From assembly GCF_036429475.1 (NCBI RefSeq), contig NZ_CP144125.1:1116001-1180000 (forward strand): 64,000 bases of DNA. The letters run 5' to 3'. The notes beneath the pieces were generated by a model, which was not told where the DNA came from, searched no databases, and worked only from the letters and a program-made list of their open reading frames with translations. Shown here in pieces: positions 52,690 to 53,706 of the stretch (its first letter is position 1; each line of letters opens with the position of its first letter). The translations under genes and the position numbers were made by a program. The DNA comes from Halalkalicoccus sp. CGA53 (lineage in GTDB: Archaea; Halobacteriota; Halobacteria; Halobacteriales; Halalkalicoccaceae).

Positions 52690-52974
52690 CTACTCGGTCG
52701 GGACGGGACCGGTCCCGACGACGGACTGGACCGCCTCCGTGAACTCGCGTCGCGAGGCGAAGTAGGCCGTCTCGACCTCCGAGAGCACGTCCTCGACGGA
52801 CCGTGGGCCGTCGGGCGTTCGGATCACGCTCTCGCCTTCCTTTCTGACGACCTCGCTCTTCTGCTGTGGCCAGGTGAGACGGGAGGTGACACGCGCGAGC
52901 GGTGCGCCCTCGACGGACTCGCCCTCACCGAGTTCGACCGCCGGCGTCTCCTCCTCGTCGTCCTCGTCGCTCAT
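52690..52974 (-). CDS. DUF5789-like small protein
   Basis: A 94-residue acidic protein. A disordered start (MSDEDDEEETPAVELGEGE) is followed by VTSRLTWPQQKSEVVRKEGESVIRTPDGPRSVEDVLSEV, the conserved part of a short haloarchaeal family of unknown function that resembles DUF2795-like folds. It lies three bases before the CPBP-like gene, forming a two-gene unit. It is divergent from the PRC-barrel gene at 53086. Confidence 0.7.
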   Translation of the reverse strand: MSDEDDEEETPAVELGEGESVEGAPLARVTSRLTWPQQKSEVVRKEGESVIRTPDGPRSVEDVLSEVETAYFASRREFTEAVQSVVGTGPVPTE

Positions 52975-53085
52975 GGGCGCGGTTTCGCGGTAGCTCTCAT
53001 TAGCGCTTTCGGATGGGCCTCGGGTGATTCTTTCGCGCATGCCGGGTGCAGGGATATACGTATCGGTGGTGTATCTCTTCCGGCT

Positions 53086-53706
53086 ATGGCGATGCAATTC
53101 ACGGAAGACGACGAGGGAAAGACGGTCGTAGACGAGAGCGGCGAGGAAGTCGGCATCGTGAGCGAGGTCAGGGAAGGGACGGCCTACGTCGACCCCGACC
53201 CGGGGATCACCGGCACGATCAGCGCAAAACTCGGCTGGGGCGACGCCGACGACGAGGACTTCCCGCTCAGAACCGACTCGGTCGACTCGATCACCGACGA
53301 CGAGATCCGCATCCAGAGTACGGCGACCGAGACGGGTGGGGTCGGCGACGAGGCGACCGGAGCCGGCACGACCACGGGAACGACCGGTGCGGCCGGCACC
53401 GGGGACGCCGGCGTCACCGACGACGATGACGACCTGATCGGCGACGACGACGAAAGCCTCGTTGGTGATGACGACGACGATCTGATCGGAGATGACGACG
53501 ATCACCGTCACTCCGACGACGACGAGCTGCTCGGTGACGACGACGATCACCGTCACTCCGACGATGATGACCTCATCGGGGATGACGACGACAGCCTCGT
53601 TGGTGATGACGACGACGATCTAATCGGTGACGACGACGATAGCCTCGTCGGCGATGACGACGACGAGCACCGCGCCGCGGACGACGACGATCCGGCGACG
53701 CTCTGA
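53086..53706 (+). CDS. PRC-barrel-like protein with Asp/His repeat tail
   Basis: A 206-residue protein. Residues 1-78 look like a PRC-barrel (MQFTEDDEGKTVVDESGEEVGIVSEV, ending DSITDDEIRIQS). Residues 82-110 are a Gly/Thr linker. Residues 112-203 are about eleven units of seven to eight residues, such as DDDDDLIG, DDDESLVG and DDDDHRHS, that repeat almost exactly. The tail is extraordinarily acidic and includes His clusters, as a metal- or protein-binding repeat would. A TATA-like element is about 34 bp upstream. Function unknown. Confidence 0.75.
   Translation: MAMQFTEDDEGKTVVDESGEEVGIVSEVREGTAYVDPDPGITGTISAKLGWGDADDEDFPLRTDSVDSITDDEIRIQSTATETGGVGDEATGAGTTTGTTGAAGTGDAGVTDDDDDLIGDDDESLVGDDDDDLIGDDDDHRHSDDDELLGDDDDHRHSDDDDLIGDDDDSLVGDDDDDLIGDDDDSLVGDDDDEHRAADDDDPATL
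53415..53690 (+). repeat. Coding tandem repeat, about 24 bp units
   Basis: The DNA consists of roughly 24-bp units (GATGACGACGAT-type) that code for the Asp/His octads of the PRC-barrel-like protein. One unit is 21 bp. Such repeats can expand or contract by slippage, which would alter the tail length between strains. Confidence 0.7.

Follow-up and report, generated by a model that had tools for sequence, protein, structure and literature searches.

Among the proteins of haloarchaea, PRC-barrel proteins have been described in cell division and in vesicles. In Haloferax, CdpB1 and CdpB2 stabilise the divisome, as described in an excerpt of PMC12186497, and HVO_1964, also a PRC protein, is enriched in vesicles, as given in an excerpt of PMC10927574. 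Here we describe a haloarchaeal gene whose product combines a predicted PRC-barrel with a long acidic tail built of short repeats. The gene lies in a 64,000-nucleotide stretch of DNA, the whole of which we call the window.

A gene for a predicted PRC-barrel protein

The coding sequence occupies positions 53086..53706 on the forward strand and, translated as an open reading frame, gives 206 amino acids plus a stop codon. We chose M1 as the start, because relatives share a MAxxFTxDDEGK opening at the equivalent position. Three parts can be told apart, all on the forward strand: a domain of residues 1-80 (53086..53325), a Thr/Gly/Ala-rich linker of residues 81-111 (53326..53418) and an acidic repeat tail of residues 112-206 (53419..53703). 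The domain carries a net charge of -17, the 31-residue linker -4 and the 95-residue tail -49.

By sequence the domain falls below the thresholds of the family models. The sole Pfam match of the whole protein was DUF7130 (PF23458; E 0.046, 14 bits), below its curated cut-off of 35, and the domain alone scored 16.5 bits against PF05239 (PRC), below the cut-off of 21.2. A sub-threshold Pfam PRC match at E<=1 was found in 8 of the 9 family members scanned, the best of them (E 0.0021) also lying below the cut-off, and none of the four family proteins scanned matched any NCBIfam family. The divergent haloarchaeal PRC branch to which the protein belongs has its own signatures (GK.VV...GT.HV.PDPG...LGW...PL), and a PRC-type domain matching at E<=1e-20 is widespread, being present in 207 of 392 genomes of the order.

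An AlphaFold model built from 44 sequences places a barrel over residues 1-80 (pLDDT 64-90 per block), with a helix at 78-82. In a Foldseek search of the PDB with this model, the top rows were Archaeoglobus CdpB1/CdpB2, reaction-centre H subunits, RimM and MTH1859, with probability about 1.00 and modest E-values of 1e-3 to 1e-2. VIA gave the Archaeoglobus PRC1/PRC2 complex as its best match (8onw_A, Z 7.8 over 72 residues, rmsd 3.0, 15% identity) and also listed RimM (2dyi, Z 7.6), MTH1859 (1pm3_A, Z 6.0) and CdvA (9s9i_B, Z 4.8). Every VIA Z was thus below 8, a range where common arrangements can score; we nevertheless accept the fold, because almost every one of the 50 rows listed is a PRC-barrel. 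Residues 1-80 are therefore predicted, with moderate confidence, to form a PRC-barrel. The first-pass annotation, made from the DNA and its translation, had called the protein PRC-barrel-like, and the description is upheld, since most of the top-listed PDB chains for the predicted fold are PRC-barrel proteins.

Upstream, a divergent intergenic region of 114 bases (52972..53085) is common to the PRC gene and to a DUF5789 gene (Pfam; 52690-52971, reverse strand). An A+T-rich stretch in this region, GGATATACGTA, about 30 bases 5' of the ATG of the PRC gene, reads like an archaeal TATA box. A GNAT acetyltransferase gene follows the PRC gene. The DUF5789, CAAX-protease, DUF302 and GNAT neighbours recur in at most 2 of 80 loci, found only in two MAGs of the window's genus. 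Around the Natrialbaceae genes we found, among others, an enoyl-CoA-hydratase-like gene in 40 of 80 loci and an aspartate-carbamoyltransferase-like gene in 37 of 80, names that we read from the sequences and not from a family search. In the 80 loci compared, these conserved Natrialbaceae neighbours had no evident tie to a tail. The neighbourhoods thus point to no partner, because the surroundings of the window gene differ from those of the Natrialbaceae genes.

Grammar and turnover of the acidic tail

Tandem Repeats Finder reported a repeat at 53422-53666 with a period of 48 and a score of 218, the top score among its 15 rows for the 64-kb window. The tail it encodes, 95 residues of which 52% are Asp, consists of three DDDDDLIG units, one DDDESLVG, two DDDDSLVG, two DDDDHRHS, one DDDELLG and one DDDDLIG, and of two degenerate end units, DDDDEHRAA and DDDDPATL. 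The two DDDDHRHS units (residues 136-143 at 53491..53514 and residues 151-158 at 53536..53559, both on the forward strand) are genus-specific. The first-pass annotation had counted about eleven near-identical units; with 12 Asp-led units, two of them degenerate, the count stands, whereas "near-identical" does not fit a tail of several unit types.

The gene and its repeat tail are real. We ruled out an assembly artefact, as the genome is assembled in 2 contigs and the same kind of tail occurs in L095, a separate MAG from this genus. All four relatives that are cut by a contig end (L094, L125, L131 and L149) are cut inside the tail; short-read assemblies thus break at the tails, and tail lengths from draft genomes should be read with caution.

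In the AlphaFold model the linker (pLDDT about 46-52 per block) and the tail (about 44-52) have no structure apart from single short stretches, and in a second model, of a Natronococcus amylolyticus protein with an 18-unit tail (L118), the tail likewise has no regular structure. Linker and tail are thus predicted to be disordered, bearing in mind that low AlphaFold confidence is not proof of disorder.

To describe the tails as a group we used 48 of them, comprising 3886 residues (49 tails less that of L136, which has masked letters). Asp makes up 52.7%, and Lys, Tyr, Trp and Cys do not occur. The hydrophobic residues number 753, and 668 of them form isolated pairs, most commonly LI (172) and LM (65); the next residue is usually G (219) or D (82). 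Adjacent hydrophobic pairs numbered 334, compared with 141 +/- 10 (maximum 169) in 500 composition shuffles, although pair counts are not independent events, because repeats are copied from one another. The spacing from pair to pair was 7-9 residues in 189 of 287 intervals. The grammar of the tail is therefore narrow: a run of Asp leads to a lone hydrophobic pair, most often Leu-Ile/Met/Val, which Gly or Asp follows, with a period of about 8-9 residues. At least one such acidic di-hydrophobic motif is kept in 48 of 49 tails. Other features are less constant. HRHS or HHHS units are confined to 3 of 49 tails, each from the window's genus, and the remaining tails contain little His; Arg or His is found away from the end in 30 of 49 tails, other tails placing Arg where the window protein has His. 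Halovivax and Natronoglomus have a different repeat (ELIDTDIG...ELVDLG) of the same chemistry; in these two genera (L126 5001-5642 and L135 5001-5762) a longer unit, DDDELIDTDIGDDAGDDELVDLGDDD, replaces DDDDLIG.

Tail length turns over fast. Two Natronococcus proteins (L115 and L118) are identical over their first 80 residues, with 97.5% DNA identity, and have tails of 128 and 163 residues, so that the copy number of the repeat, which the first-pass annotation suggested may vary between strains, does vary between species. Units within a tail were more alike in DNA (identity 0.768) than when units were shuffled among 31 tails (0.712; highest of 200 shuffles 0.725), as expected from repeated local duplication. 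In the window tail taken alone, the excess over its sister L095 was small (0.723 against 0.715).

We also considered, and dropped, a choice of codons that counters slippage. In the window gene, GAT accounts for 14 of 49 Asp codons in the tail and for 0 of 15 in the rest. Over 49 tails, however, the GAT share was 0.27, against 0.33 in flanking ORFs, which were picked mechanically and include wrong frames, and it was the higher of the two in 8 of 49 rows.

Relatives, paralogues and restriction of the repeat

We compared the window protein with the best 80 of 88 relatives from a scan of named genomes (81 rows with the window), calling a protein tailed if it was longer than 100 amino acids. By this measure 49 rows, including the window, are tailed and 32 are not. 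An acidic tail is hence present in 48 of the best 80 of 88 relatives and absent from 32, so that its absence from relatives, which would have counted against the first-pass annotation, is not what we observe; in one of the tailed, Halopiger djelfimassiliensis (L107), the stretch beyond the linker contains only 6 acidic residues. Among these best 80 of 88, the tailed rows come from the window's genus, Halalkalicoccus paucihalophilus, an unclassified MAG near it and most Natrialbaceae, and the tail-less rows from Haladaptataceae, Haloferacaceae, Natronomonadaceae, Haloarculaceae, Natronoarchaeaceae and a few Natrialbaceae. Two members of a tailed family, Natrinema hispanicum and N. limicola, have no tail, and the tail is thus dispensable for some species. 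On a domain tree, which is built from 80 residues and, with few columns, weakly resolved, the distribution of the tail requires 5 changes, of which at least 4 fall on well-supported branches, compared with 25.6 when labels are shuffled.

The window genome also has a tail-less paralogue (L005 1501-1758; G000:C2:583331-583588), with a counterpart in a sister MAG (L096 702-974). This paralogue occupies the neighbourhood of the Halalkalicoccus tailed gene: the upstream gene is 68% identical over 251 residues and lies at a matching distance. The tailed copy of the window sits elsewhere, adjoining the DUF5789 gene, and does so in two MAGs of the same genus as well. The two copies of the genus are joined on the domain tree with support 96/87. 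A simple reading is that a duplication took place, after which the relocated copy would have the tail and the one at the original site would lack it. Another PRC-type paralogue of the same genome (L015 1501-1947; G000:C2:1443277-1443723) has a long, non-repetitive acidic tail.

To see where else the repeat occurs, we searched DNA with a degenerate 36-base pattern that encodes G-DDDD-x-hydrophobic-hydrophobic-G-DDD. It matched 25 of 391 genomes of the class, under two family labels (f1 with 2 genomes and f8 with 23), and the backward control of the pattern gave 0 among the matches listed. All 30 loci examined, taken from the matches listed with at least one per genome across the 25 genomes, encode PRC proteins, 29 by regular expression and one (L087) by eye. 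In viral contigs, a search for the PRC family gave 50 pattern matches and 0 confirmed relatives, and the repeat pattern was found on one contig (L194 6-1214; IMGVR_UViG_3300032233_000849). The protein of this contig has DDDDDMFG repeats followed by a region that by eye looks VWA/CobT-type (DYSGSMS motif); it had no Pfam match at E<=0.01 and, as far as read, is not a PRC protein. The presence of the acidic and hydrophobic-pair grammar in this apparently unrelated protein indicates that the grammar can arise elsewhere.

Possible roles of the tail and comparison with known systems

The best explanation we can offer, tentatively, is that the protein is an adaptor in which a PRC-barrel is joined to a disordered, multivalent tail. 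This reading builds on properties computed here, namely the fold, the predicted disorder, the grammar, the occurrence of the repeat in PRC proteins alone within the sample of the class and the fast turnover of length, and adds docking, partner binding and the tuning of avidity, which would work as follows. By analogy with the PRC domains of CdpB1/CdpB2, the barrel (residues 1-80) may dock on itself or on another PRC-type partner, and the flexible Thr/Gly linker would project the disordered polyanionic tail. Each hydrophobic pair would be a sticker, bound weakly by a groove of a partner, and the Asp runs would be spacers, holding the chain in an extended, soluble state in molar salt. Gain and loss of repeats would set the number of stickers and hence the avidity. 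We favour stickers because the pairs are retained while sequence and copy number vary, and because purely electrostatic effects should be weak at molar salt. In an excerpt of PMC8348266, acidic clusters are described as shorter and rarer in halophiles, with weak electrostatics at high salt given as the reason. Of the roles suggested in the first-pass annotation we prefer that of a scaffold tail, with the conserved hydrophobic pairs, which were not discussed there, as its active part. The role of CdpB1/CdpB2 in the divisome and the enrichment of HVO_1964 in vesicles make membrane-linked scaffolding a natural place to look. A more specific and rather doubtful possibility is an archaeal docking array, in which acidic di-hydrophobic motifs (Dn-x-Leu-hydrophobic-Gly/Asp) would be read multivalently by a dedicated, putative haloarchaeal receptor; repeat number would then be an evolvable dial for avidity or condensate formation, in a sticker-and-spacer scaffold evolved for molar salt.

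Metal binding had been proposed on account of the Asp clusters and the HRHS units. The confinement of HRHS to the window's genus argues against His-metal binding as a general role and weakens that part of the proposal, whereas binding of hard cations by the Asp runs survives as a rival, if an unlikely one: the clusters would buffer or store Mg2+, Ca2+ and Mn2+ with low affinity and high capacity. The calsequestrin tail, also acidic, binds divalent cations in this manner, and such a store could be of use in carbonate-rich soda lakes, which have little free Ca2+ or Mg2+. The Asp content of the 48 tails and the charge of the window tail fit this role, as does tail length: within the Natrialbaceae clade, the rows regarded as alkaliphiles have longer tails than the others (21 and 20 rows; medians 101 and 40 residues; Mann-Whitney p 0.0012, leaving out rows cut by a contig end and rows of unassigned phenotype). 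This raw association, however, comes down to 3-4 phylogenetically independent pairs, far below what a sign test needs, and three alkaliphile rows of the clade are tail-less; we take it as a lead that fits a soda-lake cation role and not as evidence for one. Moreover, cation binding needs no hydrophobic pairs, and molar intracellular K+ would be expected to compete.

It is also improbable that the tail serves hydration, solubility or a polyD-type chaperone activity, as a polyanionic brush with weak hydrophobic contacts that solubilises either the protein itself or its clients at high salt. Acidic poly-D/E chaperones (DAXX, for example) and the chaperonin GGM tails offer analogies. The alternation of acidic and hydrophobic residues, without Lys, Tyr, Trp or Cys in the 48 tails, and the disorder predicted in two models are consistent with this, and according to an excerpt of PMC8348266 acidic clusters stabilise the proteins that carry them; the same excerpt has them shorter and rarer in halophiles. 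Furthermore, the same barrel does without a tail in 32 of the best 80 of 88 relatives, and the barrel alone already carries -17 in 80 residues.

Fast length turnover, homogenisation within tails and loss of the tail in some lineages would all follow from neutral low-complexity expansion, with GAY-rich repeats arising by slippage and tolerated since acidic disorder is harmless in a haloarchaeon. We consider this quite unlikely, as the pattern is confined to PRC proteins (30 loci in 25 genomes, among the matches listed) and two lineages with different sequences use the same grammar. In addition, codons that differ from GAC/GAT by one step and would spoil the chemistry are seldom or never present: against 2047 codons for Asp there are 0 for Tyr, 13 for Ala (GCC/GCT) and 37 for Val (GTC/GTT, some within pairs). 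Finally, it is very improbable that the tail is an electrostatic cluster that curbs unspecific binding of nucleic acid by an RNA-binding PRC barrel (RimM also has a PRC domain): RimM is among the closest folds, and acidic clusters act in this way in Nop15, but molar salt abolishes the effect in that system (both from an excerpt of PMC8348266), and the -17 charge of the barrel favours neither nucleic-acid binding nor docking of the tail within the molecule.

Haloarchaeal PRC-barrel proteins are players in division and vesicles, and the branch described here, which scores below the Pfam PRC and NCBIfam models in the proteins tested, adds to them a disordered repeat tail whose length differs between close species. 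If it were a docking array, it would be a simple natural system for disordered scaffolds in molar salt, where electrostatics is screened and hydrophobic stickers are expected to dominate. Tailed and tail-less species and paralogues offer ready-made comparisons. The open-licence literature we searched yielded no description of such a PRC-barrel repeat tail.

Several known systems resemble parts of the protein. Short Asp/Gly repeats with hydrophobic positions are shared with the RTX beta-roll, whose nonapeptide consensus is GGxGxDxUx; the unit of the PRC tail is instead Asp4-x-hydrophobic2-Gly, of 7-9 residues, by eye no GGxGxD motif occurs in the tail of the window protein or in the tails of relatives that were read, and neither of the two AlphaFold models, both metal-free, predicts beta strands in the tail. 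MTH1859 and CdvA, archaeal proteins with a single PRC and a PRC-like domain, have folds similar to that predicted for the window domain, and we know of no repeat tail in either. The electronegative clusters of RNA-binding proteins, as set out in an excerpt of PMC8348266, are also disordered acidic runs beside a small domain; the PRC tail differs from them in its regular hydrophobic pairs, its acidic partner domain and its halophile host. CdpB1/CdpB2, the PRC-barrels of archaeal cell division, share both the fold predicted for residues 1-80 and an archaeal origin. Two other proteins of the same genome (L195 and L196) match PF05239 at 43.8 and 41.0 bits, in a search that did not recover the window protein; since they match the PRC model much better, they are the better candidates for CdpB roles, and we do not file the window protein as a CdpB. 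With the PF05239 proteins at large, which provide its best PDB matches, it shares the predicted fold, and it departs from them in its score below the cut-off, its divergent haloarchaeal signatures and its repeat tail. It is a recurrent, unnamed variant of a known domain.
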